This document shows, piece by piece, positions 1 through 61,760 of a stretch of 64,000 nucleotides of DNA; position 1 is the stretch's first letter; each line of letters opens with the position of its first letter. This DNA is from Anas platyrhynchos. Taxonomy: Eukaryota; Chordata; Aves; Anseriformes; Anatidae. A program made the position numbers and the translations under genes. The notes below the pieces were generated by a model that worked only from the letters and a program-made list of their open reading frames with translations, ran no database searches and was not told the DNA's origin. Where the stretch lies: positions 14,962,001-15,026,000 of the forward strand of contig NC_092590.1 in the NCBI RefSeq assembly GCF_047663525.1, in the 5' to 3' direction.

Positions 1-139
1 GGTGTTCAACTGCATAGCATGGTAAAACCACCATAGCTACATCCATAGCTTGACATGCATCAAGGCATGCAGTCCTCACTGAAAGCATTCCCTCCCACCT
101 TGAGGCTATAACATGCTTCAGTTCTTCATTTGTGCTCTA

Positions 140-218
140 GGTGATCATGTTTGGCAGGGGCTTCGGACTAGATGATCTTCAGAGGTCCCTTCCAACCTCA
201 ACCATGGTTCATTTCTAC
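140..218 (+). repeat. CR1 LINE 3'-end fragment
   Basis: The stretch reading GGACTAGATGATCTTCAGAG followed by GTCCCTTCCAACC is the characteristic 3' end of avian CR1 elements, in plus orientation. Only the last part of the element is present, which is usual for 5'-truncated CR1 insertions. The remaining bases from 1 to 455 show no exon that I can recognise; they would be intron of the HERC-like gene. Confidence 0.7.
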
Positions 219-455
219 AGTCAGCCAGGCACTGCTCAAGAGCATGATTTGGGGTAGGTAGCGTGACAGTAATAGGTAGGTAGTGGGACAACTCAACTCC
301 TTCAAAGACATGCTAAAAAGATTCCTAAAGGAATGTCAAAGCACCATGTTTCCTCATAAGAAGGAAACACCGAAAATTCAACAAAGAAAAATGATTGAAA
401 TATTCTAAATCATACTGATGCATCCTGTCTAATCTGGATCCAAACACTTTCTCAC

Positions 456-3400
456 CTGGTAAAGAATATGCAGTATTTGCAAAGCCTCATGCAGTTCAAT
501 GGGAGTCTGGTGTCCAAAGAGATATAATGGACTGTTGAAAATATATCTGAAAAATCGAGACATTGTGTTCTGCGAAAGCTTCTGATATATACGGACCAGA
601 TTCTTGAAAGATAATGTGTCTAGATTTGACCACAGGCATTCTGTAAATAAAACAACAGCTAGTAAGATACCCACCACAGGTAACATGCAAATAACTACCT
701 TTTTTTTTTTTTTTTTGGATTAAGTTGCATTTTCCCTTCTTATCAACTGAACAAAACAAAATGCTTAATTTCATAGTACAAAATTAGTAAACCTCAGATT
801 GAAAAACACTGTTTTTCTTGTGCCTGCTTTTTCTGTAGTAGTCCCCATATTTGTGTTTCTACCAAAAGCATTTTTTCCAGGCTGAACTCTGGAACAAATT
901 ACATCAACAATATTATCTCTTGTTCCATAGCCCAAAATGACCAAACATTTAATCATTCAATTCCATCAACTTCAAACCCTACCAAGAGCTTTCCGGTCCT
1001 TCTTCTGGAGCCTCAGAATGGCTTTTGCTAACAGCTGGAGAGAACGGTAAGAGCTGTCATCATCTCCCTGAAGAAGAAAAGGCAAAATCAAGTAGACTCT
1101 GAAATTTTCTGGTGAGATGGGAGATGAAGACAATGACGACAGCAAATTCACAATTCCATTTTGCACCTTCAGAATAATAAAAAAAAAGAAAAAGAAAAAA
1201 AAGGGATTAAAAATGCAATTGGGTTATGCCAAAGTAATCTATGATTTAGGTTAGCACAGAATTCGTTTCATTCACAAATCTTCCTTCACACACTAGGTCT
1301 AGGATACTACCTTTAAATTCAATTCCTGAATTAGTCAGTTTTCTGATTGATTTTGGGTAACTCATTCATCCACTTATTTCCCCCAATAGAAGACAGACAA
1401 CTTCTTTCTGGGGTAATTCTGCCATCATTTCTCTTCATTGGGAAGCCCGGCAGCTTTTTGTAAAAGGGCTTATTCCCTGCATGAAGACTTTCATAAAACT
1501 TCACCTCTCCATGATTCAGCTTCAGCAGGGACAACAAACAAACTCTTCAAGAAGCTTCCTGAAAGGTTGGATTTTTTTTTTTCCATTCAGGTTGGAAAAG
1601 ACCCCTAACATCATCTAGTCCAACCTTTAACCTAGTCCTAAAGCCCACCACTAAACTATGCTACTAAGGTCTAAATCTAAGGCTTCTTGAAGACCTCCAG
1701 GGATGGTGACTCAACCACTTCCCTGGACAGCACATTCCAATGCCACACAACCCTTCCGGTAAAGAAATTTCTCCTAATATCCAACCTAAACCTCCACTGG
1801 CACAATTGAGGCTATTTCCCCTCATTGTATCACTTGATGCTTGGGAGAAGAGACCAACCCTCACCTTGCTACAACCTCATTTGAGGTAATTGTAAAGTAC
1901 AATAAGGTCTCCCCTGAGCCTTCTCTTCAAGCTGTACAACCCCAGCTCCCTCAGCCACTCAGAACAAGTCATAAGACTTCTCTAGACCCTTCACCTGCTT
2001 TGTTGCCCTTGTTTGGGCACACTACAGCACTACAATGTCTTTCTTGTAGCAAGAGGCCCAAAACTGAACACAGTTTTCAAGGTGCAGCCCAGAACCAAGT
2101 ACAGGGAGGGGAGGGGAGGCAATATCTTCCCTGGTCTTGCAGGCCACACTATTTCTGATACAAGCCAGGATGCTGTTGGCCTTGTTGAACCTCATACAGC
2201 TGGCCTGATGCCATCAACCCAGCCTATCCAGAGTTCTCTGCAGAGTTTTCCTACCCTTGAGCAGATCAACACTCATGCCTAACTTGGTGTTGTCAACAAA
2301 CTTACTGAGGGTGCACTCAATCCCCTCATCCAGATCATTGATAAAGATATTGAAGAAAAGTGGCCCCAATACCGAGGCCTGAGGGACTCCACTAGTGACC
2401 TGCCTCCAACTGGATTTAACTCCATTCACCATGACTCTTGGGCCCAGACATACAGTCAGTTTTTAACCCAACAAAGCGTACACCAGTCCAGGCCTTGAGC
2501 TGCCAGCTTCTTCAGGAGAATGCTGCATGAAACAGTATCATAAGCCTTACCAAAGTGTAGCTAGACCACATCCACAGCCTTTCCCTCATCCACTGAGCGC
2601 ATCACCTTGTCATAGGAGATCAGGTTCCTCAGCCTTTGATAAACCCATGCCAGTCAGCATGATCACCTGGCTGTCCTCTAAGTGCTGTGAGATAACACTC
2701 AAGATAACCTGCTCAGTGAGCTCCCTTAGCACTGAACTCAGACTGACAGGCCTGTAGTTTCCCAGATCTTCCTTCCAGCCCTTCTTGTAAACGGGCATCC
2801 TATTTGCTGACCTCCAGTCAGCTGGGACCTCCCCTGATAGCCAGGACCACTAATAAATGATGGAAAGCAGCTTGGTGAACACTCCCACCTGCTCCTTCAG
2901 TACCTTCAGGTGGATCCCATCTGGCCTCATATGCTTGCATAGATCTAAGTGGACTAGCAGGTTGCTAACCACTTCCTCATGGATTATGAGGGCTTCATTC
3001 TGCTCCACATCCCTATCTACCAGCTCAGGGGGCTGAATACCTGAAGAACAACTGATCTTGCTGCTAAAGACTTAGGCAAAGAAGGCATTAAGTACCTCAG
3101 CCTTTCCTCATCTCTTATCAGTAGCAAAAGGTCCAGCGGGCACTGTCCCTAGCTGGCTCACTCAATAGCTCCGTCAGGAAGTTATCTTCCACACACTCTA
3201 GAAACCTCCTAAACTGTTTCCTCTGTGCTGGGTTGTATTTCCAGCAGACATCTGATAAGTTGAAGTCCCCCATGAGAACAAAGGCTAGCAATTACAAAAC
3301 TTCTCCCAGCTGTTTGTAGATAATTCGTCTGCTTCTTTGGCCTAGTTAGGCACTCTATAACAGACGCCCACCAGGACATCTGCCTCATTGGCCTTCCCTC

Positions 3401-6400
3401 TGATTCTCAGTCATAAACGTTCAATCCTGTCATCACCGTTATTAATCTCAAGACAACCCAAATGCTTCCTAACATATGGGGCTACCCCACCACTTCTTCC
3501 TTTTGTGATTTCTAACCTGCCAATATCCCTCGTGCCTTTGGTACCACATGGTTCTCCATCCCCTACCTCAACAGGGGTGGTAGACCAATGGACCTTGCTA
3601 GCACACTGTTCTTTAACCATTGTCATATCACCCCTAGGCTTGTCTCTGTCAAGCCTGGTTTTATCCCCTTCCCCTTTCAAATCTAATTTAAAGCCTTATC
3701 AGTGAGCCCTGCTAATTCCTGAGCAAAGATCCTTTTTTCCCCTTAGAGACAGGTGAACACCATCCAGTGCCAGCAGGCCAGGTGTCTTGTAAAATGACTG
3801 ATGGTCAAAAATTCCAAAGTTCTGCTGGTGACACCAGGCTTGGAGCCAGATACTGATTCGCTGACTTTTCCTATTCCTCAACTCATCAATTCCTGCAACT
3901 GGAGAGAGGGGAAAACACCACCTGTACTCCTGACCTCTCAAAAACTATGTCACAAGGCCCTGAAATCTCTTTTGATTGTCCTCAGACTTGGTCTTGAAGC
4001 TTCATCTCTGCGTACGTGAAAAATAACTGACAGCTAATAGTCTGAGGGTCAAACCAGGGCAAGAAGCTTTCTCTTCACATCCCTAATCCGGGCCCTGGGG
4101 AGGCAGCAGACCTCCCTATGAAGCAGATCTGTCTGCACTTTGGGCCTTCTGTTCTCTTCAGAAGGGAGTCTCCCACAACAGTGACCTGTCTTTTTGTCTT
4201 GGTGGGATCTATTTTAATGCAGGTGATGTTTGTGTCACATCCAAGCCAGATGTACCGCATTCCCCAGTGTTGCTCAGATCGACCTGCAAAGCTTCACACC
4301 TATTGTGCAGGGGCACCTGAGAAGGTGGGAAGTTCCTAAGGGGACGAGCCTGCTGCGCCAGACCAGGACTTGTTGCCATTGCCCCTTATTCTCTAATCGG
4401 TGCATGTGAGAAATGCCTTGCATGCCCTGATCCCCCACTCTGCTGCAGAACACCTCTGTCCTGCATTTGCTTTGTTTGTGAAAGACTGGGAAAACCTAAA
4501 CCTCTGGGGAAAATAGCAGTCAGACCTAGAGCTCCTTGGTGTCCGTGTAGTGAGAATTCTTACATCAAATTCTTACCTCCTGGTAGAGTGATGTCTTGTT
4601 GCTGATCTTCTTATAAAAGCATTGCACTGCTCTCATGTCTACACCTGAAATTTCTTTGGAAGTTTTGAAATGTGTGTCTCTGTCACAAAGGAAAAAAAAA
4701 ATCAAATGAGCTGTTTTTTGTTACTGACTGAACAGTGAAGCACCCTAACATCAGAAAATACTTAGAATTAAGCCCCAACTCCAGCGAGTACAGCTTCACC
4801 TGTTTTATAAAAATATTCTCACTGTGGTGTGTCCTCATTGATATTCTGTCATTCCCATCTTGTCTAGTGATGCACTGTTAATAACTGTTAATAACAGGCT
4901 TGCTTGTATTTCACCCAAAAATGAATTGCACTTCAGTGCTGGGAGGAGCTGTTATGGACTGTAATAAAGTGGGAGCTGTAATATTGCCTCACAAGATTAA
5001 AATCATCCATCAATTGTCACTATGGGATGGTCTGCTAGAATATCAGCTTCTACAGCAAATTTTGGTAGGAACTACAGGATAAAAAATAATTTTAGTTCAG
5101 GCTTTTCCTTGAAAATGCAGACTTGCTTCTTGCAAATTCAGATGCAACTATTCTTCTCTACATACATAGCTTAAAATAACACTTTGTGATCAGTTTATGT
5201 TAAGCAAATATTTTTTATGTCTATGTCAGCACACATTACCCCTTCTCCAGGAAGCTTCCATTGATGCAAGCCTCAGATGAAAAGATCAGTCTGATATTCC
5301 TGAGTAAGGGAAAAAAAAAAAAAAAAGCAAAGAAAAAAAACAATCCTTTGAACAAAAGTAGCAACTTCCTTATTTAATTCTGAAAGAACAAAAGCCATGT
5401 GTACAAGTGTATCTCCACATAACCACATAAAAAATCTTAACAACACTATATTGAGAGCTTTTACTCAGTCTCTAGACTGGTTTAACTTTGTCAGCTCTTC
5501 ACCAATTTAACAACCAATTATTGCAACGAGAAGGACTGGCTTCCAAAACCAGGCAGTACATCTGTTCTGTTCTTTCAAAAGGGTTATCAAGGGGCTGTTG
5601 CTTATGAACACATGTTTTTCCTATGAAAAAATGAAGTAAGAATTTCTGGTACAAGATATGGCCCTCAGCTAAATTCTCCAACATCAGTTCCTATAACAGT
5701 CTTCAAAGAATAGTAATTTTTAGGGAAAATTATATGTAGGGAAAAAAAAAAATCAACACCAGCATTCTGACTTACTTTTTTATAGTTTCCCAGCGTTTTG
5801 GACGGGAATTAGAAATCCATGCATCCACTTCATTCTCCTTCAGAGTTGCAATTCCATTCAAAGGATAGGAATTCTGTATGGAATGCATGAATATGTGATG
5901 AAATTTAAGGTATAGCAGATGTGATTCTTTTTTTCAAGTCAATCACTACAAGAACATCTCAGCCTAAATATAAATAAATTAATGGTCATCCAGAGTGACC
6001 CAGATGCAGAAAACATAGAACAGAAATATAATTGCAATACAAGTCTGTTTCTGATGTAGGCATGAAAAGAACTGCAAAGAGACTTATCTTTAGTTGGAGC
6101 ATTAAAAGCAGAATAGAAAAATCAAAAGCTTCCAACAGTATTGTGAACAATGGTAAAACTACTGTAAAAAAAAGCTGTAAACAAATATGTACATACCCTT
6201 TCCTTCAAACAAAGCACAATACTCTCATTTTCTTCTGATGTAGTTTCAATCACCTTTTGTGAGGTATTGTTTTCTGTGAAAGAATAAAAAGGTTTTCAAA
6301 CAGTTGAAAACAGTCATTGTTACATAGAGTTCAGTGCACAGAGGTGGCATATTAAAAAAAAAGACAGCAGCTGACTATCTAAAAGTTGATTCCTTGAGGC

Positions 6401-7970
6401 CATTACTCATGGTGATAAATCAAATAGCAAATAGATTTACACATTGCTAGACTGTGTTTGGGACTATCGAGCAAGCATGAGATAACAGTCTAAGCAACTA
6501 GAAGCCATTAGCTTTCTAGTGTAAACTGGAAATCAAGAAATCAAACTGAACTGAACAAATTAATACAGTTTGTACACATCTGCAGTGTTCATTACCCTGA
6601 CAGGATTTTCCATTATCCACTGGTGAATTGATGGGAAGTGGTATCAACTGATTAGCTGTTCTCTCATTTCCCGGCTGTCCTTCATCAGAACCAAATAAAT
6701 AGACTTTGTCCAAGGAGGGGACATAGACCAGGGTGTGCTGTCTGTTCAGAAAAAGAAAAATGGTCAGAATAAGTTAATACCTCTGAACTAGTTAGAGTAC
6801 AATTTACAAAAATGTTTTCAGAGGGGATAGCTGAGGCTTGTCTTTAGAAGTCATAACAGTCCAGCCATAGAGTCCCTTTAACTGAAGCCATAGGACCCTT
6901 TCCTTCTATAAACATAGTAAAAAAGTAAAAAAATACAGACTCAAATTTCCTATACTATCCCTGAATGTTTATGGTTTACCCTGCATTAAAATAAATAAAT
7001 AAATAAATAAATAAGTGTTATGCCTTGCTAAATTCCTTCCATTTTTTCCAAGTGCAATTTCCACACTGCTGAGTCTGATTCAAAACCCAGGAAATTCAAC
7101 GGGAGACTTTTTCTGTCCCAGTTCCAGAAAGGCAGAATGAAACCGGGTCATTTTCACCATTTCTTGGTTCTTTCTAAGGTTCCACCCAGTCTTTTGAATT
7201 AGATTGGAACTCAATGACTTTTCTGACTTAGCCTTTTGACAGTCTTCTGTCCTTTGGAACCCAGCACATCCTTCATTTCTTGGAAGAGCAAGAGCCAAGG
7301 ACTCCTGCTGGTTTTTGCAGCCCTCTCCCCCTGCTTGACACTTGCTGAGGGTTCTGATTTCACAGGGTTTTTGGCAGAAGGGTGGCCTGATCAGGAAGAT
7401 CCCTGAGAGAGCTGAACATACAGGGATTTGAACATATTGGTGACTTTCATCCCTGCTGTGGTTCAGTGATTTCCCTAAAACTCAGACCTCAAAAGACATT
7501 TTATTAAGGTACTTTCCTACCTTCCACAGGCAACCTGCGAAACTTTTGCTCCCCACAGCTCAGCCACTACACGAGGTGTTAGTTCATTCCGGGTGGAGTT
7601 GTGGCCAAGCTGGCCAGCCCCTCCTGCTCCAAACGTGCACACCAAGCCATCCTTGAAGATGAAGAAACAAACAACAGGATCTCTGCATTATTAACAGCAT
7701 TCAGATGGTCACCATCAAGAGAGAGACCCAGCAAGACACAATATGCATTATGGACCTTTTCTCAAAACATCCCTCATTGAAACACAGTTCACTTCTCATC
7801 AAGCCTAATCTGATGCTGTTTTTATGCCCAAATCCTTTAACTCCTGGAAAAAAAAGAAAAAAAGAAAAAAAAAACAAACCCTCCTGAGAATAACTCCCTG
7901 TTGTTTAAGAATTTTATTGTATGAGTTAAACCTAGCGAATGACCTATTGCTCTCATTTACTCACAGTATG

Positions 7971-8018
<48 letters not shown>

Positions 8019-10501
8019 AAAGTGTGTTTAAAAAGTATGAAGTATTGAACAGCTTCTCTTTGCCCCAGGATTATCATTCACCATCTCTCTCCCTGTTTAT
8101 GCAGATGATATGAATCTGAGCAAAGGCCAATTTTCCCACTACCACAGTTAGTCTGCCTTCGGGATCATTCATATCCAGAGTCTGATGGAAGCAAGCGTTG
8201 CCATTCCAATTTCTCTGTGTTGAGTTTTAACAGTGCATCTTTTCTCCCAGCATTTCTCAGGTGCTGAGTTTCAATTTCAGACTCACCTTGGAGAGAACTG
8301 CAGTATGATCTGCCCCACATGAGATAAATACAGTCTTCCAGTGCTCTAATGCTTCGATGTATGATGGGTAGTCCTTGTCTGGAAAGAAAATAGAGCATAG
8401 ATAAAGTGAAAGCATACTGGAGTGTAGAAATAAAGATTTAGAAAATACTTTTTTTTTTTTTTTCATTTTACAGTCCTATCTTACAGCAATTCATATATTT
8501 GTGACTTGGTTTCAAGGTTTTTTTTCTACCCTCCACTATAACGTTCTCTTTCTCATAATGTTCTGTCTGGTTCATAGTTTTTTCTCTGTTCAGTTACACT
8601 AGGTCTGAAACAAAATGCAACGCTTTCAGGTTTGTTGGACAAAAGGTACTTGGCCTCAAAACATCTGATTTTCAAGGAGTTGAACATATTCAACAACTTC
8701 AGGTTCTTTCTGGCTAAGGCAACTCTGCTCTTGCCTTCCAAGTTTGAAGACAGTGGGTCACTTCAATTATTTTCTCACCTTATTTTCACAGAAAATTAAA
8801 GAAGGCAAAGAGGTATAAAACGAATCTCTTTCATGAAAGATTGCCTGGAAAGAGACATATGGTTTTAGGAGCCCAGGCTACCCACTTGGCCACATAAAAT
8901 GATGACAAAATGATCTGTAGATATCTAACACCTAAATCCCTTGACCCTTCATGCATTTTCTGGTCAGGATGCAATAGCTTCAAAAGAAAAAACTTATCTA
9001 GATATACTCACTTCCAAAGTCCCTACCACCCACTGCTGTTCCAAAGAGATTTGGCACTCTAGAACAATTCCTGTGTGTGCAGAAAGTTCACTGAGCAGGA
9101 AAATACCTTTCTATTGCTTTGCTCTCAAACTGCTTTATTTTCTTACCTTCTGTGTGTCCAAGTCCCAGCTGTCCAAAGTTGTTCTTTCCCCAGGAGTACA
9201 CGGCTCCAGAGAGTGACACAGCAACGCTGTGAGCTCCTCCAGCAGCAATTTGAGCAAGTGGGATGCCCTTTAGTCCTTTCACCAGCTGCGGTGTGGAGGT
9301 GAGTGTCACTTGTCTCCCCACTCCAAGCTGTCCACGGGTGTTCTGGCCCCAGGTAAAGAGCTCACCTCCTTCACACGTGCAACAAAAGAAAACAGCTCTG
9401 TGTCATGCTTCCCTTGAGTCTTTGTACTCTGGGAATGGGAGTGAGAATCAGTGCTGGTTTCAGAGATCTGGCTCCTAAGCGCTAGGAGTACAGCAGCAGC
9501 AGCAGCAGCCAAATCTCCCTGTCTGCTTCTGCCCCCTTCAGGGCAGTGCCTGTGTGACTCAATGCAGCAAGAGCAAAAGCAGGGTGTTGCCTCTATTGCC
9601 ATACTTTTATGAACCAAAGAGCTCAAACGTAAAAATGTGCAGGTCTGGTGAGCATAGGGCGGGGCAGCCACGTCTGCTCTCCACAACGCACCTTTGAGGA
9701 GGGGCAGTGCTGAGGAATTGGGGAAGGACAGATCTGCAGGTCCCCGAGAGCTGGGGAGGAAGGGCAGTGCTGACAGAGAGCAGTTTGTGTCCCCTATCCA
9801 CTGCTCATTACTCGCTGGTGGTGTCACTAACTACTGCACACGGTTCAAGGTCTCCCTTCTGAGCGAGCCTGTCAAATGGGACTCCCATTTGGAGAAGAGG
9901 TGTGCATAAAAGAGACTACCTCTGCACAGTGCCATGGCGTGATGGTCCCCGCAGGTTATTTGAACAACTTCTTGGTTTCCCAGTTCTTTCACCAGCCTAC
10001 GAAGATAAGGAAAAAATACCAAATCAGAACAGATGCTGTGCCATGAGACTAAGTAAAAGGAGGAGGATCCTCTGCTCACCACGACCTAGGATGTTTAGCA
10101 GTACTTATATAGAAAAATATCGGTCGTCTCTCAGTTGATTCACCCTGCTCTTATACAAGCCTCCTTCAGCTGCACTAACTGATTTGATTGTGGTTCGTGA
10201 CAGAGGAAGCTGAAAGAGAATCAGTCTCATCCCTGGGCAAGTTAAGAGCAAATTCCATAAATGATATCCTGCTATTTCATTTGTAGATGCTGGTCACCCT
10301 CACAGATTAACCAGAAGGTGGTGAGGTTTAGGTGGGCCTGGGTCTTTCACACACAGCTTTCCTAAACCACGTGTAGTTCACCTGTCATTTGCAAACTGGT
10401 GTATCTATTTATCCTTACTGAGTTCTGAGAGGAACCTGTACTGTCAGTATCTCAAACAGCTCAGATCTTAGTGTTACCCTCGAGATCAGAGCATTTCTTG
10501 C

Positions 10502-10548
<47 letters not shown>

Positions 10549-11529
10549 AGAAAGTTCTGAGTTTTAGAAATGCAAGTATTCTTGTTTCATTTTTGCAGTA
10601 AGAGCATGCCTAAGTTTCTTGACTGTTACCTTTAGGAAAAGGAGGCCATGTTCTATAACCATTGCAATGCATACTTTCACCCTGAGGAAGCTTCTTACCT
10701 TGGCTTAAAGCAGTCATCTGAAGATGCAGCCCAGTTTTTGGAAAGCTTCCCATCACAGGAGAAAAGGGGTGTATGTGTTTCATCGCAGTTTGGACATGTC
10801 GCCTTCTCCTTTCTCTGCAGCTGCACTTGTTCTACAGCACAGATAAAGACAGGCATGGCAGTCACACCAAGGAAGCAGGCACCTCAACCATCTCTGCTCC
10901 TCCCCCAGTATCTCCGTGTGCTACTGCTTTCACTGAGAGTTTCTGCTCCTTGGGAAGAAGAGCAACAAGCATAGGCAATAATTTCTCATGTCACTTGGGG
11001 CTTCAGTGTCCTATGCACTACTTTGTTGTCCTCCAGCCACTCCCCTGGCTGTCACTGGAAGACACCTCTCCATCTCTCAGATACAGGCTCTGAATACAAT
11101 CCCTGACACGCCAGCAGAAGCACACGGATACTTTTGCACAGCCGTGGAGAGTATCCAAGGGAAAAAAAAAAAGGCACTTGCTGAGTTATCTGACTGCCCT
11201 AGATCCATCACACGCTTAGGCACAGGTTGCCTCGAAGCCAGATGTTTTGCAAGCAGCAAAATTCACACCTCGGCCATCCCACCGCCCACCCTTCTCACCT
11301 CCCCAGCTCAACCAACAGCATGCAGCCAGGCAGGGGCATCTCTCCCCATCACCCCCGTCTCCTCCCTGTCCCCTGGCTCCTGGCAGGGTCCCTGTCCCCC
11401 CACCCCCGGTACGCCGCCGGGTCCCCCCCCAGCACCTCCCGCTGCCGCCGGCTTCTGCTTTGCGCTGCGCTTCTGCTTCCCGGCCAGCTGCCGCCGCCGC
11501 TGCCGCTGCTTTGTCCTTCTCCCGGCCAT
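456..11529 (-). CDS. HERC5/HERC6-like E3 ubiquitin ligase, 5' part (HECT domain outside window)
   Basis: Thirteen minus-strand exons join in frame: about 11529-11413, 10820-10699, 9996-9920, 9365-9147, 8378-8287, 7651-7521, 6741-6596, 6273-6197, 5873-5776, 5299-5240, 4679-4577, 1166-983 and 640-456. They encode about 537 residues. RCC1-like blades are clear ([39 protein letters not shown], then [12 protein letters not shown]), followed by spacer motifs such as [14 protein letters not shown] and [11 protein letters not shown]. Recalled human HERC5 lines up throughout, closer than HERC4. Such proteins conjugate ubiquitin or ISG15 through a C-terminal HECT domain, which would lie left of base 456. 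The first exon is least certain: ATG at 11529 starts a short basic leader ([13 protein letters not shown]) like that of HERC5, but its donor near 11412 is weak. One blade reads GQPGN instead of GQLGN. A large CR1 copy lies between exons 983-1166 and 4577-4679. HERC3 is the alternative. Confidence 0.85.
1582..4350 (-). mobile_element. CR1 non-LTR retrotransposon, degenerate, with ORF1, endonuclease and RT remnants
   Basis: Read on the minus strand, from about 4350 down to 1582, the element keeps the order of a CR1 LINE. An ORF1-like part contains [13 protein letters not shown] and [14 protein letters not shown]. An endonuclease part near 3390-3300 reads like LVGVCYR. A reverse transcriptase part includes [14 protein letters not shown] (2798-2610) and [20 protein letters not shown] (2432-2214). 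The usual YADD catalytic box region reads FVDN. The CR1 3' end is at 1585-1630. Stops and frame changes interrupt every part, and at about 2.8 kb it is shorter than a full CR1 of roughly 4.5 kb, so it is dead. It lies in a HERC intron, same strand as the gene. Confidence 0.9.
6985..7013. repeat. (AAAT)n microsatellite
   Basis: A run of about seven AAAT units lies in a HERC-like intron. It is simple sequence with no sign of function. Confidence 0.9.
7972..8013. repeat. (TA)n microsatellite
   Basis: About 20 uninterrupted TA units followed by an A run lie in a HERC-like intron. The tract is long and pure, so it is likely to vary in length between individuals. Confidence 0.95.
10507..10545. repeat. 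poly(A) tract, 39 bases
   Basis: An uninterrupted run of A lies between two HERC-like exons (9920-9996 and 10699-10820). No recognisable retroelement precedes it on the plus strand, so it may be a plain homopolymer and not a retroposon tail. Confidence 0.9.
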
Positions 11530-11620
11530 ACCGTGCCAGCAAGCAGCCCGCTACCGCTAGGCTGAGCCCCAGGCAGCTCCTTTATCCCTGCTCCCCGCCC
11601 CAGCCAGCCTCAGCTTTCGG

Positions 11621-11648
11621 GAAACGAAAGCGAAAGCGAAAACGAAAG
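11621..11648. promoter_or_regulatory. Tandem ISRE/IRF-binding array upstream of the HERC-like gene
   Basis: Five GAAA units follow each other, the last four at exact 6-base spacing (GAAANN pattern). This is the interferon-stimulated response element bound by ISGF3 and IRF factors; the consensus needs only two to three units. It lies about 90 bases upstream of the proposed HERC-like start codon at 11529, in a GC-rich promoter region, and works in either orientation. That position and strength imply interferon induction of the HERC-like gene and favour the HERC5/6 branch over HERC3/4. Binding itself is inferred. Confidence 0.85.
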
Positions 11649-12246
11649 CCGGGAGCCCCAGCAGCCAGGATGCTGCCGCCTGGAGGTGCTGAGCTGGGAA
11701 ACGGGGATCTGCGCTCGAAAGGCTTTCCATTCTCACATGTCCTCTGCTGATGTCTGCTAAATCTCCCCCCCTGCCTCTAAAGGAGAGCACACGCAGGGCT
11801 ACGTGACCGCCTTGTGCGATAAATGACGCCCGTGTTAGGGATCAGATGCATGGAAAGACATAAGAGCATCTTTATACCCAATACCTTTAACAGATGAACT
11901 AAATGCTTAAAAAAAATCATGCTGCTGAATGCTGAGCACAGCTGGGAGGATAGCAGGGTAAGGCGTGCTGTGAAAGTAGCACTAGGGACGTGATTTTACA
12001 GATTCTTACTGGCGTTGAGTGAAATGCTGCAGAAAAAAAAAAATACTGAGACAACAGAAGTGTTTAATGTGATACATTTAAATGAAGCAGAATGGAGTGA
12101 ACAAAAAGGCACAGAAAGTCAATGTGGTGAAAAATAACAACAGGGTGGAGACGGAGAACACAGCCCTTTGACAGGGCTGGGGCAATGCTGTCCAGGGCAG
12201 GGCCCAGCCCAGGTCCTGCAGCACTCAGCATTAACCAGAGCAGTGC

Positions 12247-12366
12247 TGTGAGGCTTGGGACACCAAAGCACGAGCCGCAAAAGCACAGTCAAGTCCCTGT
12301 GCACCAACAGATGAGCTCATCTGTCCTCCAAAGAGAGCAAAGGAGCTCCAGACAAAGGCACAGGAA
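12247..12366 (+). repeat. Copy 1 of a diverged local duplication
   Basis: This segment, beginning TGTGAGGCTTGGG and ending near GGCACAGGAAT, recurs about 415 bases downstream at 12661-12771 with many substitutions and small indels. Shared blocks include CCCTGTGCACCAA versus CCTCTGCACCAA, ATGAGCT, GTCCTCC and GGCACAGGAAT. I do not recognise the repeat family. Confidence 0.6.
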
Positions 12367-12660
12367 TGTAGAGACTTGAGGGGAGGATATGAACAGAACA
12401 GTCACTAAAGCTCTTTCTTTCCTTTCAGAGCTACATCCATGAAGGTGAAAGTCACTCAGGGTACACACCGCAGTTCCCCATCGTACAAGTACCCCTGGGT
12501 CCTTGAGCAGAAGCAGTCCCACAGTTGGGTTTGCCTTTTGCCCACAGGGGAGCAAACAGCACTTGTCTTCCTAGCCTGTTGCCTGCAACACTACAGGGAC
12601 CTCATCTCTTTCTGTGATACATAGGAAGGTCTTTTGACAATGAAATAGCAAGCTATGGCC

Positions 12661-12771
12661 TGTGAGGCCAAAGTATGGGCTGCAAATGGACACTAGAGGT
12701 CCCTCTGCACCAAAGCATGAGCTAACGAGTCCTCCCAAGGGAAGAAAGGTGCTCCAAGCAGAGGCACAGGA
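12661..12771 (+). repeat. Copy 2 of a diverged local duplication
   Basis: This is the second copy of the segment at 12247-12366, in the same orientation. It ends with GGCACAGGAAT exactly where a CR1 fragment begins, so the CR1 insertion or a recombination at its edge may mark the boundary. Confidence 0.6.
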
Positions 12772-12772
12772 A

Positions 12773-13305
12773 TCGCAGAATCATAAGGTTGGAAAAGATC
12801 TCTAAGACCATCAGTTCCAACCATTAACCTCGTACTGCCACGTCTACCACTAAACCATGCTTCTCAGTCCCTCTTTGGACATGCTCCAGCACCTCAATGT
12901 CTTTCTTGCAGTGAGGGGCCCAAAGCTGAACACAGGGTGAGGTGCAACCAAAAGCCAGAGCCAAGTACAGGGGGACAATCACTTCCCTGGGCCTGCTGGC
13001 CACGCTACTTCTGATACAAGCCAACAAGCTGTTGGTCTTCTTGGCCACCCGCCCCCAGTAGCCAGCACACTGCTGTCTGATATTCAGCTGGCTGCTGACC
13101 AACCTCCCCAGGTCCTTTTCCAACAGGCAGCTTTCCAGCACTCTTCCCACAGCGTTACCTGGGGGTGCTTTGCTCCCAGTGCAGGACCCTGCACGTGGCC
13201 TTGTTGAACCTCATGCACTTGGCCTCGGCCCATCCAGCCAGCCTATCCAGATCCCTCTGCAGAGCCTTCCTACATAGCCTCAAGCAGATCGACACTCCCA
13301 CAAAA
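12773..13305 (-). mobile_element. CR1 LINE 3' fragment
   Basis: The plus strand begins AGAATCATAAGGTTGGAAAA, the complement of the CR1 3' end. It continues through reverse complements of CR1 3' coding sequence ([14 protein letters not shown]-like and [12 protein letters not shown]-like reading on the minus strand). The 5' part is missing, so it is a truncated, inactive insertion. From 13306 to about 14100 I see no repeat and no coding exon apart from possible 5' leader of the next gene. Confidence 0.85.
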
Positions 13306-14108
13306 TAAAAGTCCTCTCATCAAGCATGTATAGTTTTCCAGGGAAAGAAAGATTCACCACTGCTTTCGAATGGTATGACCTTATCTGACATCACCACAAC
13401 AAAAGCTACATAATGAACAGTGAAAAAGGTGTGAAGAAGAAAGCAGTCACCAGTCTACCACCAAATTTAACCATTGTGCAACACATTAAAGTCACAAGAC
13501 TTATATCAGGAAGCAATGTGCCCCAGCAAGTTACATATTTTGAGTTTATGTCAATAAATGGAGAAAGATAAGGAATGAAAACTTCTTCTATTTAATGAAG
13601 AATGATATTTGTGTCATCTCTATGCAATATTGACAAGTATGGGAGTCACCAGCTGGGCCTGCCTGTGCCACCACAGCCCCTGAGCACCCCACTGGTGCTG
13701 CGGGCAATGCCACAGCTGCCCCACAGCCCCTGGGAACAGCACGGAAGGATGAGCATGGGTCTGGGGGGCCTGGCAATGCCCCTGCACTGGCACAGCTCCT
13801 CCTCACTGAGCATTTTGGAGCACAGACCCTGCCCACAGGGCTCCGGCTCAGGCCTCAGTGGTGAGGCAGACCCAGACCTGCAGCAGGGGGGTGACCGTAG
13901 GAGCAGCTGGCTGAGAAATTTGGCTCCCCAGGGTCTGCCTCCCTGCCAAGACTTTCCCCTCTTGCTGGGTGCCCCATGACGGCCTTGTGACATCGCAGGG
14001 CCATCGGTGACAGCACTGTGGGGCTGCTGGCACCATCACCCGCTCAGCGTGCAGACAGCGGTGCTGCTGGTGACGGCCAGAGATCACGCCCAGAGCAGGA
14101 GCAGCAAA

Positions 14109-15126
14109 ATGCTCAGCCTGGGGCTCTCCTTGCTCTTCCTGCTCTGCATGGCCTCTCAGCTCCCCAGCAGCCCTGGCTGTTCCAGCCGGCCCTCCTGGGC
14201 CACGGTTATGTGGGACGTGGCTCCCGAGGACCTGGAGCACCAGGGCATTGGCACGGGAAGCCAGTGCTCCTACCTGCCCTACCTTCTGGACCAGCTGTGG
14301 TCCTCCCTGGACATGCTGGATGGAGCTTTTTGGTCCATGGAGGTGCTCTATAGGAGCATCCCAGCCCTGTGCCTGCTTGGTGGGGTTTTCCTTGTAGGGA
14401 TTTGCTTATGGAGGAAAGCCAGGAGATGCCAGAGAGAGGTGAGTATGGGGGTCAGGCAGGTCAGACAGTGCCAGGTTGCTGGGACTGCCAGGCCTTGGAC
14501 TTTGGGTCAGTAATGGGTAGAACAAGGAGTAACAGCCCATGTGGTCATGAAGGACTCAGTAGGACCCTAAGGTGCCCTGGGTCTTCCCTGGACCTCCTCC
14601 CAGCCCTGGGAGGCAGAGATGGGTCTCATCCTCAGAAGAGCAAACAGGGACAGGCTCATGCCTGAGGGATAAAAATACGGGACCTGCCTGAGGCTTTCTT
14701 TGCACATCATGCTGCCTGGAGCAGCCCAGCAGGACCCAAAGTTCTCAAGAAGAAGCCAAGCCCAGCTGTAGATGTCTCTAGCCCTCCAAGGCCCATGTTC
14801 CTTTCATCATGCCCCCTTTGGCCTCTTGTTTCCAGGAGGTGAGCAAGACACCCTCAGCTTCCTCAGGGATGTGCTGCCACTGTGGGTACTCCTACAACAG
14901 CTATGAGGTATTACACCAGATGGAAGGAAACATTGTCCTGATGCAGAAGCACCTAAGAGAGCTGCAAATCTACCACCCAAAAGCTGGTAGGACTCAGAGA
15001 GCCAAAAGGAAGAGGAAGGTGGAAGACATGGAAGAGGACGAGAGCATTTTCTCCACCTGCCTGGAGAGCCACGGCTCCCAAAAAGGCTCTGGGAGGGAAT
15101 CGGAGGGATTTCTCCCCAGTGAATAA
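14109..15126 (+). CDS. Small single-pass membrane protein, two exons (possibly TEX50-like)
   Basis: Exon 1 (14109-14438) and exon 2 (14836-15126) join in phase 0 at AGAGAG/GTGAGT and TTTCCAG/GAG, giving 206 residues. The ATG at 14109 has A at -3 and begins a signal peptide (MLSLGLSLLFLLCMAS). An extracellular part of about 60 residues carries WATVMWDVAPEDL and SQCSYLPYLLDQL. One membrane segment lies at about 82-100 and ends CLWRKARRCQRE, so the tail is cytosolic. The tail has a CCHCG cluster, a helical stretch, a basic run (RAKRKRKVE) and an acidic run. From memory, the W...PE...SQC-LPYLLD-L...LWRK pattern resembles the testis-expressed protein TEX50, which I could not verify. An upstream in-frame ATG at 14007 exists but would bury the signal peptide. 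No clear poly(A) signal was found. Confidence 0.65.
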
Positions 15127-17036: not shown

Positions 17037-17462
17037 ATGGCAAGCTGGACGTTATGCGTGGTGCTGCTGCTGGCATCAGTGGCAGGGTCGGTGGGTGAGA
17101 CCCGCTATGAGAAGTTCCTGCGGCAGCACGTGGACCATCCCCGGACACTCGGGCTCACGGGGCACCGCTACTGCCAGGTCATGCTGGCACGACGGCAAGT
17201 GACGGCCTCAGGGCGGCCTTGCAAGCCCTCCAACACCTTCGTGCACGCCCCGGCTGAGGACCTGGTAGCCACCTGCAAGAACCCTGCCGATGCTATGGGG
17301 ATCCACAGCACCTCAATGCCCATGGGCATCACAGCCTGCCGCCTGCGGGGTGGGGACACCCGGCCCCCTTGCAACTACCGGGCCCGGCAGCTCCAGCACC
17401 ACGTGCGTGTTGCCTGCCTGGATGGGTTGCCCGTGCACCTTGCTGGCACCTATGGGGCCTGA
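17037..17462 (+). CDS. RNase A superfamily ribonuclease, 3-disulphide angiogenin/leukocyte type
   Basis: This is a complete 141-residue secreted RNase encoded in one exon; a 3' splice acceptor ends at 17030, six bases before the ATG. Residues 1-20 form a signal peptide, cleaved before ETRYEKF. The catalytic triad is intact: H31 (FLRQHVDH), K63 in the CKPSNTF signature, and H134 (LPVHLAGT). The mature protein has six cysteines (46, 62, 80, 101, 112, 127), so three disulphides as in angiogenins and chicken RSFR/leukocyte RNases, and not four as in pancreatic RNase. Such proteins cleave RNA at pyrimidines and many are antimicrobial or angiogenic. Chicken RSFR matches in length, FLR-HVD, NTFVH and GLPVHL. 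The basic mature chain fits host defence, which is an inference. Confidence 0.95.
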   Translation: MASWTLCVVLLLASVAGSVGETRYEKFLRQHVDHPRTLGLTGHRYCQVMLARRQVTASGRPCKPSNTFVHAPAEDLVATCKNPADAMGIHSTSMPMGITACRLRGGDTRPPCNYRARQLQHHVRVACLDGLPVHLAGTYGA

Positions 17463-25342: not shown

Positions 25343-27291
25343 ATGCTCTGGGCGGACCTGCTCATCCTTCTCCCTGCAGCCTGGTACCAGCTGGCAGCGT
25401 TCCCCTTCGCTGCGCTCTTCCACCAGCTCTGTGCCTCGGGGCAGCTCTCTCCGACTGCTCGGTACGTGGTTGCCACCTCTGCTGCTGCAACAAGGGCAGG
25501 TTGTGTCCGTGGGTGCTTTCTGGGTCTCTCCTAGCCAGAAATGCAGTGGGGCACAAGGTAGCGATTCCCTGCTGATGCAGGTATGGACGTGAGCTGTCCC
25601 ACTCCCCTCTTTGAGCAGTGGGGCCCGTTCAGGGTGGTTAAGGCTCAAAAAGCCAGGCCAGACTCTCCTGTTGAAAGAGGTGGTTTTAGGGGTGTACTGG
25701 GATGAGTGCATGGGCAAAGGGAGCAGGGAGGGAATGGGGACTGCCTCTGGCATGACAAAGATAGGGACCAAGCAGGGACTGCGATACCCAACCTAATCAC
25801 CCCGTCCCTGCCTTGCAGCTATGGTGGTAGCTTGGGTATAGCTTGCCTCAGACTACGCCCTACCACCATCACCAGGGCTGGCGCCTCAAGCACCAGTTTC
25901 CCCAAAAAGCCAGCCAGAGGGCATCTGGTCTCTTCTAGGTACACGTTCCTCCTCGCTGGAGGATGTCTCCTTGCAGTCACAGCCATGGGCAGCTATGCCG
26001 TGTTGCTCCTTATCCCCGCTGCTGCCTCCGTGCTCGTCCTCCTCTCCGCCAGCCCAGCTCACGTCCACACCTGGGTCTTTGGCCTCCAGATGTGCTGGCA
26101 GACCCTCTGCCACCTGGGCCTGGGCAGCTTGGCGCTGGAGTCAGGGGATGCCAGGTAACCTTCCAGCCCTGCCTCCCTCCCTCTCCACCTTCCCAGACAT
26201 TTTGGACGGGTGGAAGCCCACCCAAGCCAAGCTGGTTGGTCTCCCCTCGGCCCCCAGCTGCATCCCTGCTGATGGATGGTGCCGTGGGCATGGCAGCAAG
26301 GGGGTGGGAGGGACAGCACGAGTGCCCACACACTCCTTCCAAGGCACCCTCAGCTTTCTCCCCGTTGCTTTCTCCTTTCAGGCCAGCTGTTGCCCTCTCT
26401 GCCATCATGCTGCTCACCCAAAAAGCAACATCTCTGGCCCTGGACGTCCACGAAGGGACCGTTCTGCCCCAGGCAGGCCAGGGGCTTTTGCAGCAAGCCT
26501 TGCCTCTCTGCAGCTACCTGCTCTATTTCCCAGCCCTCCTCGGAGGCCCCCTGCAGCCCTTCAGCAGCTTTCGGGTCCAAGCCGAGTCCCTGGGGGCTGT
26601 CCCCCTGCCCCTGGAGGCTGCTGGATGGAGGTGCCTTGGGGCACTGGCACTGCAGGGGCTGCGTGTGGGGCTGGAGGGCTGCCTGCCCCGGGTACAGGGC
26701 TGCTCCGTCCTGGCCACCCTGTGCCACACGTGGATGCGAGCCCTGCTCTTCAGGCTGGCCTACTACACGCAGTGGGTGCTGGACGAGGCCCTCCTCAAGG
26801 TGGCAGGCTTTGGGCCGGAGGAAGGGCAGGGAGACCTTTCAGGCCGTGAGCTGTGGGTGCTGGAGACCACGCACCGCCTGGCTGTCTTCACCCGCACCTG
26901 GAACAGGAGCACGTCCTGCTGGCTGCGGAGGCTGGTCTTCCAGCGCTGCCCAGCCCAGCCGCTCCTCGCCACTTTCGCCTTCTCCGCCTGGTGGCACGGC
27001 CTCCGGCCCGGCCACGGCTTTGGTTTCCTGTGCTGGGCTGTCATGGTGGAGGCCGACTACCGCATCCATCCCTTCCTCAGCGCCTGGGCCACCTCCCGCG
27101 TCGCAAAGCTCCTCTACCGGGGCACGACCTGGGTCTTCACGCAGCTCCTTGTCGCCTACATCCTGGATGCTGTGGAGGCTGAGAGCTTCTCTGCACTCTG
27201 CCTGCTCTGGACTTCTTACAAGAGTATCCTTCCCCTCTCTTACGGTGTTGTGCTGCTGCTGCTACTTTTCAAAAAGGCAAAGCAGAACTGA
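25343..27291 (+). CDS. MBOAT4: Ghrelin O-acyltransferase (GOAT)
   Basis: Three exons, 25343-25461, 25939-26154 and 26382-27291, join at consensus sites (GCTCG/GTACGT, TCTTCTAG/GTACAC, GCCAG/GTAACC, CCTTTCAG/GCCAGC). They give 414 residues; human is 435. The enzyme attaches octanoate to Ser3 of proghrelin in the ER membrane of ghrelin cells. The chain is hydrophobic with many membrane segments, as in all MBOATs. Both active-site residues are present: N286 in [17 protein letters not shown] and H317 in [13 protein letters not shown]. They are 31 residues apart, as are human N307 and H338. Long stretches match recalled human GOAT (AAFPFALLF-like start, [35 protein letters not shown]). It is tail to tail with PRAG1. 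No clear poly(A) signal was found. Confidence 0.96.
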
Positions 27292-29907: not shown

Positions 29908-32900
29908 TCAGAGCAGCTGCAGCAGCTTCAGCGTGTGCGAGAGGGAGGCAGGCTCGGCGGACGCCAGGTACTGGCAGCAGAGCCAGTCCTCCAGTTCGAC
30001 GCTCCGCTCCGTGTCCACGGCTCGCTCAGCAAACTTCATCATCAGCAGGGCCCGCTTCATGTCCACCCAGTTCTGCAGCACCTGGCAGAGGGCTTCCTCG
30101 TGGCTGAGGGGCTGCTCGGTGAGCTCCCGCCGGGGCCCCCACAGCAGGCACTGCAGCATCCGCTTGGCCTCGGTGATCCGCACGCGCTTGATGGGGTCCG
30201 CCTCCAGAAGGAGGTGGGCCAGCTGCTGGAGCCCCCGCGAGTAGATGGACAGGCTGGGCAGAGCAGGGAGGTCCTCGGGGCTGTACTCCTGCTCCTTGAG
30301 GTGCACCTTCTCCTCAAAGGGGTTGGGCTGGTGCAGCAGCTCGTAGATGAGGATGCCAGTCTGAAACTCATCGAACTTCTTGTACTGGGAAGCTGACACA
30401 ATCTCCGGGGCCAGCCTGGCCTGACTCTTCTTCAGCTTGGAGTCTCCGGATCCCGGTTTCTGCTTGGCTTTCAAAAAGTTGCTGATGATCAGGCGGGGCA
30501 AGTGCTTGTCATCTTTGGCTTTCACACAGCTCATGGGGGGCTTGCAGGGGACAAGCAGGAGGTTCTCCAGGCACAGGTCACGATGGATTATGCCATGCTC
30601 TTTGAGGTGCTCCAGCCCGTTGCAGAGCTGGAGGAGCAAGAAGCAAACCCGACGTTCGTACAGCTCAGGCTTGGCTTGGTGCAGCATCACCGAGTCCCTC
30701 ACGAAGTCAGCAGTGGTCTGGCTCGGCACCTCCCGCGTGATGACCACCACGCAGTCGTGCTCGCTGGCAGCGCGGGAGGCACGGAGACCATCCCCGGGCA
30801 CGCTCTTCTCCACATCCGAGGCCAGGAGCATGCTGGAGGGGACGGAGGCCACGAAATGCCCACAGTCCTGCTGGATGTTGAAGTGGACGGGCACCGCGGG
30901 GCTGCAGTATGAAGCGGCCACCTTGGACTCCTGGCTTTTACAGATCTGCAAGGAGAGACCAAAGAAAAAGTTTTATCCATCAGTGACAGAGACCGGGCGC
31001 AGACCAGAAGCTCAGAGGTAGTTCCTTAAGCTGGGATTTGAAGACATTAAGATATTGGTAGAAGCAGGGTGCATATTAGTTCCTTTAGCACTTTAAACCA
31101 TCTCTAGATTTTCTTGAACTCGCATGACTTTGTCTTCATTTTGTTCTGTGTTTTAGCATTATGGCTGCATTAAAGACGACACAAACCCAAAACCAGGTTT
31201 CTTATAGGAGCATCCATTAGCTTGTGAGGCCTTCTGGCATTTCTTTTGTACGCTTCTGTTTTTTTCCCCCCTTCTATTTAGGGATGTATTTATATCTCAA
31301 CCACAGGAATCAACAACAGGCTGAAACTCAGCATAAAAGGCTTCAAACCCTGGAGCGTGCCACTGCCAGTCATGGTGTGCGTGCAAAATCGGACAAGAAA
31401 TCAATTTTGCCTCCAAGCTAAAATAAATGCAATAATAGAGAGGAGCTGGAGAAACAGGCTGCTTTTGTACTCCGCTAGCAATGGTTTGGATCCAGGCATT
31501 TGCAGGTAATTCACTCAGATGAGATGATCGTGTAGAGATAGGACAATAGGGGCTTGAAGTGCCCCTTCTCTTCTAAAGGAAAATACCCTGCTGCTGCTTC
31601 ATGCTTATTTAGGGGAAAGATAATCTCTGCAGAGTGGGGCAGACTACAGATTACCATACCAAGGAAAGAGGAGCCCCTGGAAGAATGAATGCAGCCAGAT
31701 GGAGTCAGGGAGATCTTCCCCAGCCAGCCTTTCTTCCTGACTTTGGCTGCACCAGAGGCATCCTCCATGCAACAGCCTCCAAGTAGGAGCCTGGGGCTGG
31801 CTTAGTCGTGCACCTTTAAGCAGAGAAAGAAGCCAAGGAGCAGAGCATATCTTGGCTTAATTCCTCTAAAGCCATTTCATGTAAAACTGGCTCCTTCTGA
31901 CTATTTTATACATATCCTTGTGTGCCTGTACACAGCCTAAACCCTGGCTCTGGCTGCTCAGCTGGCCCCTTGGCTCACGTCAGATCCTCTGCCCATCTTG
32001 AGTTATCCAAATCTATTTTAACTACCGGTCTGCGATTTCTTGCACGTCAGAAAATCTGTATCACATCCAGGAGGGGCAGTGAGAAGTCAGCTGTAAAGTT
32101 TTGCAAGTGTTCTCCATTTCAGCTACCAAAATAAGGTAGCACCCTGGAACATTGCAAGAGATGTGCGAGTGCACGTACATAAACACGTGCATGACTTTAT
32201 GCTGGTGCAGAGTACAGCCCTGTTGGGCTGCTCTGGGCTTTATCACAGTGCTCTGCAGAGTACCAAGGACACAGAATAAGCACACAGGGACCCAAGAGCA
32301 GCTCCGTTAAGAGACTGAAATTGTGGTGTTTCTGCCTTGGTCGTAATTCATCCACTACAGCAGTGGAGGCAGAGCCACTGAACCACACCCAGCGTGGCTG
32401 GCAAGAGGAAAGGTCTGTGTGTGCCACCAGGAACCACATATTGAAAAGGAGCTGACCAGCTCTGAGGTTTCTGGAAGAAAATTTTGATGGACTTTGGCTT
32501 GTTATACCTAAAAAGTTGCTGCTCTGACCGCTGGACTAGAGGTATTGGGGCAAGCCCTGATTCAACTCCGGTTATTCAAAGCACCCCCCTGTTGGGTTGC
32601 CTGCTTCCTTTAGAAAATCTTTTTTAAGGCTTTAAAGCTATCACTTAACTAAAACATCCCCTTGGGGGTTGTAATTGTGTAAAGGATTCAGCAGATCTTT
32701 TTTTTCCTTGCTTAATGCATCTCTGGCAGCGCTTGTTTGGGAATTATTTTAGTTTTTGAAAACAACATGAGGAGGAAGCAGCAGTGAACTTCTAGGTTAA
32801 AGCCCAAACAGAAGTTAAAAGCCTCTGCATTCAAGTAGTAACATGGATCAAGAACCCCAAATCCACGGGATGTGCATGAAACAAGCTGCCTAAGCTTATT

Positions 32901-48800: not shown

Positions 48801-48984
48801 GGTGTCCTCGGGAGATCCTAAATTCCTGCCGGCTCGGGGAGGGTGGGGTCACGGAGAAGGGAGGTGGGGGAGGTTTGGGTCCCCGTAGGGTTTGGGGTGT
48901 GCTTTAGGGTGGGTGGGAAATGGAGAGGTGTGCCCCCAGCCGCTCGCTGGGCTGGGTGGTTTTGAGAGTCTAGTGCAGCTGGAG

Positions 48985-49347
48985 CTGGGGGAGGGAAAGA
49001 AAAAGAAAGAGGGGAAAAAAAAAAAAAAAGAGAGAGAGAGAAAAAAAAAGAAAAGAAAAAAAAAAGAAAAAAAAAAGAAAAGGAAAAACAAATTTAAAAA
49101 AATAAAAAGAAAGAAGAGGAAAAAAGAGTGAGAAAAAAATGAAAGAAGAGGAAAAGGGGAGAAATAAAAAGGGAACAAAAGGAAAAAAGAGGGAAAAAAG
49201 AAAAAAGAGGAACAAAAGGAGAAAAAAGAGGGGGAAAAAGAAAAAAGAGGAACAAAAGAAAACAAGAAGAAAAAAAGAAGAAAGAGGAAAAAAAAAGAAA
49301 AAAGAGGGAAAAAAAAAGATTAAAAATAATAATAAAAAAAAGGAAGT
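48985..49347 (+). repeat. Long polypurine (GAAA/GGAAA) tract
   Basis: About 360 bases are almost purely A and G on the plus strand, with only scattered T or C. The units vary (GAAAAAA, GAGGAAAA, AGAAGAAA), so it is not one clean microsatellite. It lies about 200-550 bases behind the CpG-island promoter of PRAG1. Such mirror-like polypurine tracts can form triplex DNA, which here is an inference. Confidence 0.9.
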
Positions 49348-61000: not shown

Positions 61001-61760
61001 GGGGAAGGCGTGCAGCCAGCCCTCCCGCTCAGCTAGGATCGATCATCCCAAATTAATCCAGAGAGGATGCTGCCCTCTTTTGGACCCAGCGTGACCGGCA
61101 GAAATTCAGCGAAACCGGGAGACGCACAAAAGCAGTGATTTTTTGGGGTGCAAAAGCCCACGTAGGGAACCTTGAAAAGTGCTGACTTACCCACAGTTGC
61201 CCCAAAGGGACATCCCAGGAACTTTTCCTGCTGGGAGCTGGGCTGCCAGCACCACCTGCGGGTGTGCCTCTGAGCAGGACCAAGCTCAGGAGCGGTCCCT
61301 GATGTGCAGGGAGATGCTCGCTGGGAGGGCAAGCGAGGAGACGAAGGGGCTGGGGAGGTCTCTTGGGCCAGCAGAGGACCACACAGCGTCCTTACCGATT
61401 ACAACTGGAGCTGCAATTGCATTTTAATGAATGATTTTCATCAACCGGCTCCTGCCCCTGGCCTCCCAGCCGCTCTACCTGCGAGGGCAGAGCGGGGAGC
61501 GATGCCTTGGTGGCTCCTGCAGTGCCGTGACCCCGCAGGGTGCTGCCGGAGGGTGCTGCCCCCCCTGTGCTGCCTGGGTGCTGCCCAGCTCTGCTGCCTG
61601 CCCCCGGCTCCTCCCTGCCTGCACTTCCTCCTGCTGCCAGCACCTCCCGCAGCACGGCCCCGTCGCGGGATAAACCCCACGGGCACGGAGTCGGCGCTGA
61701 TTTCCCTCCCTCCGGCGAGCGGGAGCTGAATTTGGGCAGCACCCCCCCACCTCTCCGAGC

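Follow-up and report, generated by a model that had tools for sequence, protein, structure and literature searches.

A tandem run of GAAA units lies in front of a HERC-like gene in the duck genome, and the locus raises two questions: is this run an interferon-responsive promoter element, and, since ISG15 is missing in birds, which tag does the encoded enzyme attach? The window, that is, the whole stretch of DNA analysed here, has a length of 64 kb and corresponds to C4:14962001-15026000 of its own genome. According to a 2018 survey, which adds a caveat on annotation, HERC5 and HERC6 are missing in most birds (PMC6002735), whereas we observed in the HERC5/6 slot of this chromosome a small HERC gene with 13 open exons, a HECT domain and an apparently interferon-type promoter.

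On the plus strand, positions 11613-11650 read GCTTTCGGGAAACGAAAGCGAAAGCGAAAACGAAAGCC. GAAA units start at 11621, 11626, 11632, 11638 and 11644, hence with spacings of 5, 6, 6 and 6 bp, and on the HERC strand the same array (11621..11647, plus strand) appears as TTTC repeats. Direct reading thus confirms the five units, four of them at exact 6-bp spacing, described in an earlier note on this DNA, which set the end of the array at 11648, one base beyond the true end at 11647. If the first unit is taken as GGAAAC, starting at 11620, it also falls into the 6-bp register. Adjoining the array is an extra unit, GAAAGC, in the inverted orientation (11613..11618, minus strand; GCTTTC on the plus strand), which may be functional as well. 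Taking an ISRE/IRF element to comprise at least two half-sites GAAANNGAAA, we found three exact GAAANNGAAA registers in the array and one GAAANGAAA.

The gene itself lies on the minus strand. Its model within the window has 13 exons whose AG/GT borders agree in phase, amounting to 534 codons with no stop; the borders were picked by hand to keep the phase, guided by provisional sequences of the human HERC proteins. The coding part of exon 1 (11436..11529) begins with an ATG at 11529, the first ATG of the gene, 92 bp from the array, which lies upstream, and ends with a weak donor, GAG/GTGCTG. A stronger donor at 11299 (GAG/GTGAGA) fits the phase of exon 2, but the frame of the ATG stops before reaching it, hence exon 1 was modelled with the modest donor; either the weaker donor is used, or the true exon 1 differs from the assembly. 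An open frame without a methionine (11299-11529, minus strand) does reach the 11299 donor, with a run of eight G in between. Exon 2 (10699..10831) has good splice signals and a fitting phase; its similarity to the provisional HERC5 was not significant, as a score at least equal was reached by 73 of 500 shuffles, and for exons 1 and 2 taken jointly this number was 2 of 500.

RCC1-like sequence was observed in exon 3 (9920..9996), in exon 4, which carries RCC1 repeats (9147..9368, in an open frame at 9088-9402; PF00415, E 5.9e-25), in exon 5 (8287..8378), in exon 6 with a further RCC1 repeat (7521..7651; PF00415, E 4.3e-12), and in exon 7 (6596..6741), where the domain ends. These exons form the one RCC1-like domain expected of a small HERC, with PF00415 matches in two of them. 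A search with exon 4 in a collection restricted to bacterial and archaeal genomes gave 52 loci, whose titles accordingly name only bacteria or archaea. The minus-strand model continues with exons 8 (6197..6273), 9 (5776..5873), 10 (5240..5299), 11 (4577..4679), 12 (983..1166) and 13 (456..640), and the gene then runs on past base 1 of the window.

In the 80 kb examined downstream, HECT exons are situated 5.2-9.2 kb beyond window base 1, and the linker from exon 13 to them was scanned by eye for open stretches. Joined, with one HECT stretch missing from the join, they match PF00632 (E 2.5e-57). The last of them contains the motif STCSYILYLPRYSS, with a stop shortly after, and the gene hence ends in a HECT domain with a catalytic cysteine, as placed by eye against the provisional HERC3 and HERC5. 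LINE reverse-transcriptase remnants, which we take to be CR1-like, were seen in an intron of the gene at 2030-2850 (minus strand) and, past window base 1, at distances of about 1.6 and 12.7 kb, in a HERC intron and downstream.

HERC3 follows the small HERC on the same strand, 17 to 49 kb beyond the window, and the 92 kb examined (the 80 kb downstream together with window positions 1-12000) contain one small HERC and HERC3. The HERC5/6 locus is reported to lie beside HERC3 in both human and chicken (PMC6002735, PMC4974698); thus, a small HERC directly before HERC3 occupies the same position here. The gene is not HERC3, which is a separate neighbour. Nor do the exons found suggest an eroded or partial gene, as has been suggested for the turkey HERC5-like gene, since they are open and the HECT domain is present, in an exon model that is itself incomplete.

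As to which HERC this is, the two ends of the protein give different answers. In the RLD, the identity to the provisional human proteins was 61.8% for HERC5 (over 207 aligned residues), 52.6% for HERC3, 50.5% for HERC4, which was set aside on this value, and 44.6% for HERC6, and in the RLD tree the duck gene grouped with the provisional human HERC5 with support 100/99. In the part following the RLD, the identities to the provisional HERC3, HERC4, HERC5 and HERC6 were 37.1, 32.7, 30.4 and 28.8%, respectively, and thus this part gives HERC5 no preference. In the HECT tree, HERC5 and HERC6 formed a group with support 100/100 that did not include the duck gene, whose row is a long branch of unsure placement; both trees comprise six rows, four of them provisional sequences. 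Hence, membership in HERC5 is not established, and a clear HERC5 orthologue is a reading that the HECT evidence, for all the uncertainty of the placement, leans against. The discord between the domains might possibly stem from domain-wise gene conversion, from the existence of a separate subfamily, or from a long-branch effect.

Compared with human HERC5, which is an ISG15 E3 ligase, the duck gene is alike in the RLD, in having a HECT domain and in its slot beside HERC3; it differs in that its HECT domain, though of unsure placement, stays outside the HERC5/6 group, and in that no ISG15 candidate was seen in the duck genome. The earlier note was right about the HERC5/6 neighbourhood, but the gene is not simply to be named HERC5.

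We give an even chance to a different assignment, by which the gene would belong to the non-mammalian HERC7 subfamily and encode a ubiquitin, not ISG15, ligase dampening the interferon response by degrading factors of the RLR pathway. Li et al. name chicken among the carriers of HERC7 and treat HERC5/6 orthologues as restricted to mammals, and zebrafish HERC7c conjugates ubiquitin rather than ISG15 and inhibits the interferon response (PMC10003058). The position of the duck HECT domain outside HERC5 and HERC6 and the lack of an ISG15 candidate among the duck matches described below agree with such an assignment, whereas the grouping of the duck RLD with the provisional human HERC5 does not, and the HECT branch is long and its place unsure. 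Also counting against it, carp HERC7 is reported to conjugate both ubiquitin and ISG15, and salmon HERC7/9 are regarded as the counterparts of HERC5/6 by synteny (PMC12234341). In the available part of a paper on sea bass HERC7, no passage on birds was found. The likeness to fish HERC7, drawn by description only, consists in an interferon-stimulated non-mammalian small HERC with proximal ISREs in zebrafish and in the naming of chicken as a carrier; the zebrafish herc7c promoter, however, has two separate ISREs, while the duck gene has a single array (PMC10003058).

Whichever name applies, the placement of the array relative to the gene would suit a promoter element. A TATA-like motif, GATAAA (11581..11586, minus strand), would put the transcription start near 11556 and the array approximately 65-90 bp upstream of it, so that the array would sit in the putative core promoter of the small-HERC gene. 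Both the GC content and the CpG ratio go up in this region. The stretch GGAAACGAAA (11620..11629, plus strand) fits the ETS-IRF composite (EICE) consensus, for which we assumed the form GGAANNGAAA; the window contains five fits to this consensus, the one in the array included. The only place in the array fitting the full chicken ISRE consensus (PMC5931624) is GCTTTCGTTTCC at 11631-11620 on the minus strand, which has one-base spacing, as in chicken Mx, and four further places in the window fit this consensus too. With four fits to each consensus elsewhere in the 64 kb, either match is weak evidence alone.

A similar promoter is known from chicken IFIT5, where two ISREs are located within 85 bp of the start, mutation of the proximal one lowers induction, and one two-unit ISRE is enough for a response; six consecutive GAAANN elements are predicted further upstream and ascribed to IRFs, and IFIT ISREs in general are described as usually proximal and working in either orientation (PMC5931624). 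Proximal TTTC-repeat ISREs near the start and predicted GAAANN elements are what the chicken and duck promoters have in common. They differ in that the chicken gene has its six GAAANN farther upstream and a two-unit functional ISRE, whereas the duck HERC gene has one contiguous array of five units. The six GAAANN elements of IFIT5 make the length of the array unexceptional for an IRF element. The array was called unusually long in the earlier note; it does exceed a minimal ISRE, yet GAAANN runs in birds are already on record (PMC5931624), and the bare pattern is common genome-wide.

Two comparisons within the duck genome support the reading of the array as an ISRE. At the neighbouring HERC3, the CpG-rich stretch before the gene (13.6-14.4 kb beyond the window) contains no GAAAN1-2GAAA site; at 16.5 kb beyond the window, some 2 kb past this stretch, comes the nearest such pair. 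In 20 kb around the duck OASL gene, there are exactly four two-unit ISRE-like sites, all within 100 bp of one another and clustered approximately 0.3-0.4 kb before the predicted start codon.

The third support comes from chicken. LOC422513, a HERC-like gene that spans PYURF and adjoins HERC3, was induced in chick fibroblasts by interferon-alpha, with a rise of 87-fold for one end of the gene and a larger one for the opposite end, while chicken HERC3 was not induced (PMC4974698), in line with the site-free stretch before duck HERC3. The orthology of LOC422513 and the duck gene rests on gene order, and PYURF and CCNG2 were not located at the duck locus; besides, Giotis et al. consider that LOC422513 may be two genes (PMC4974698), whereas the duck locus shows one small HERC and HERC3 in the 92 kb. 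LOC422513 is also present in three four-species lists of genes differentially expressed upon influenza infection, given without the direction of change and jointly spanning chicken, crow, duck, goose and turkey, but does not figure in that table's row for all five species (PMC10011077). In stimulated DF-1 cells, the proteins with the strongest rise include one labelled HERC4 (PMC13259848), which may or may not be the gene at the HERC5/6 position, and a core-gene table flags HERC6, ISG15 and UBA7 (PMC5747502).

On this evidence, the array is very probably the proximal ISRE of a small-HERC gene that occupies the HERC5/6 position on the bird chromosome and responds to interferon. The interferon-driven expression proposed in the earlier note would, by analogy with the strong induction of the chicken gene at the same position (PMC4974698), hold for the duck as well. 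Several observations count against the ISRE reading: the bare pattern is common, an imperfect hexanucleotide microsatellite would look similar to the array, the donor of exon 1 is weak, exon 2 has no significant similarity to HERC5, the gene model has gaps in the linker and the HECT domain, and LOC422513 is missing from the five-species row.

If the array works as an ISRE, interferon-activated ISGF3 (STAT1, STAT2 and IRF9) would bind the overlapping GAAANNGAAA half-sites, and in infected cells members of the IRF family would presumably bind them, too. The three overlapping two-unit registers, or four with the 5-bp one, might accommodate more than one complex or allow for fast re-binding. Binding of ISGF3 or IRFs would switch on the HERC E3 ligase, which would then conjugate ubiquitin (most likely) or possibly OASL to its targets, acting either as an antiviral effector or as a feedback on the interferon response.

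IRF multimers are suited to GAAANN runs, and hence the array could alternatively act mainly as an IRF element, with direct binding of IRF1 or IRF3/7, or of ETS-IRF pairs (PU.1 with IRF4/8) at GGAAACGAAA, and with virus-induced activity or basal activity in immune cells not driven by ISGF3. We consider this doubtful; it overlaps with the ISRE reading and does not exclude it. The EICE-like match covers the first units of the array, but the recurrence of that consensus across the window reduces its weight. The ascription of GAAANN elements to IRFs in IFIT5 (PMC5931624) speaks for direct IRF binding, and in zebrafish IRF3/IRF7 act on the herc7c promoter, although it responds to IFN and STAT1 as well (PMC10003058); the induction published for chicken, on the other hand, was by interferon-alpha (PMC4974698).

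A much less probable reading is that replication slippage produced the array as a short hexanucleotide repeat, an imperfect (GAAAGC)5, which would lie near the promoter by chance and play no role in transcription. Tandem Repeats Finder does report it as a repeat (11621-11649, period 6, 5.0 copies, 87% matches), and it also finds a second period-6 repeat, GCTGCC, nearby at 11487-11509. Within the window the array is the sole run of at least three GAAA units at 6-bp spacing on both strands of the 64 kb; 100 dinucleotide shuffles of the window yielded a mean of 0.01 three-unit matches and none with two, and simulation at two Markov orders, with 60 windows at each, gave no four-unit run. The genome-wide picture is different. 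The complete duck assembly (1.26 Gb in 42 contigs) contains 13,915 + 13,779 = 27,694 exact four-unit matches, hardly above the 13,916 + 13,626 = 27,542 of the reversed control in the same genome, these counts including overlapping registers of single repeats; on average, the bare four-unit pattern occurs approximately 1.4 times per 64 kb. As the bare pattern is so common, it is composition and position that speak for a function. The 100 genomic matches listed, which are the first by position on one contig (C1), fall in a handful of places and do not sample the 27,694 at random, are A/G-only simple repeats, whereas the duck array carries C and CpG. As to position, the array is found in the putative core promoter of the HERC gene, the chicken counterpart of which responds to interferon (PMC4974698), and proximal ISREs are used by chicken interferon-stimulated genes (PMC5931624). 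The same two properties argue against pure chance, by which the array would be rare under the within-window models, common though the bare pattern is in the genome. The 24-bp core of the array had no exact match in a viral contig collection.

Finally, it is hardly credible that the array serves the opposite strand and drives a hitherto unnoticed plus-strand gene in the interval 11650-14500, since HERC exon 1 and the TATA-like site are both found on the minus side at no more than about 100 bp and the list of open reading frames has no plus-strand exon near the array, even though a short signal-peptide-like frame starts at 14109 (plus strand) and ISREs are bidirectional, as described for IFIT genes (PMC5931624).

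With the array read as an ISRE, the second question is what the induced ligase would attach. Among 29 matches to the ubiquitin family (PF00240) in the duck genome, no ISG15 candidate was seen; nine of these loci were translated (two of them being the same OASL place), and 20 were judged by their place and the span of the match. This agrees with the published statement that birds have no ISG15 (PMC8764230), which the earlier note had put as the lack of a clear ISG15, although a very diverged or unassembled ISG15 in the duck genome is possible.

Tandem whole ubiquitin domains are found at three sites in the genome, two of them of the polyubiquitin type. The third, C13:13129623-13130072 (minus strand), is a frame ending in LRLRGGARPQHPSCPSS, where tandem ubiquitin-like domains lead to LRLRGG and then to an 11-residue tail. 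Its best single match over both domains is the chicken OASL structure 7sbi (E 3.3e-53), and its best ISG15 match has E 3.5e-24; polyubiquitin chains score at the top through repeated matches to the second domain. Judged by these matches, the frame is the OASL of duck. In the precursors of ISG15 and ubiquitin, a C-terminal extension is trimmed before conjugation, and the 11 residues beyond LRLRGG would likewise need trimming.

As no ISG15 candidate was seen and OASL has LRLRGG, ubiquitin and OASL are the candidate cargoes, and the same genome thus poses the question which of the two the bird HERC attaches. The question of cargo, raised in the earlier note, is not without published leads: ubiquitin is suggested by fish HERC7 (PMC10003058), and OASL by chicken, since transfected chicken OASL, which ends in LRLRGG, forms covalent conjugates (PMC8764230). 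These conjugates arose whatever the antiviral treatment, and the authors propose that the enzymes are either constitutive or induced by the plasmid (PMC8764230); constitutive enzymes would speak against a strictly induced OASL ligase, whereas induction by the plasmid would not. In the passages on OASL conjugation, no HERC is named for OASL (PMC8764230). Ubiquitin would be the plainest guess for the cargo of the duck ligase, and OASL the bold one.

The bold guess can be put as follows: the interferon-driven HERC at the bird HERC5/6 locus became an OASL ligase, and OASL with its LRLRGG end is a replacement modifier ("OASLylation"). We regard this as unlikely. If it is true, the ligase and the modifier, both having ISRE-type sites in their promoters, would be switched on together.

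Elsewhere in the window, an open frame (14109-14513, plus strand), parts of which resemble a signal peptide and membrane segments, lies upstream of the HERC gene on the opposite strand, followed by an RNase A family gene (17049-17450, plus strand; PF00074, E 3.4e-27) that consists of one open frame and begins like a signal peptide. Further along are an MBOAT-family gene (25939-27291, plus strand), presumably ghrelin O-acyltransferase-like, a kinase-fold gene (29908-30972, minus strand), which we take to be PRAG1-like, and a claudin-family gene (61701-62456, plus strand), presumably claudin-23-like. A long polypurine (G/A) tract occupies 48950-49400 on the plus strand, and the AT skew for 49001-50000 is 0.44.
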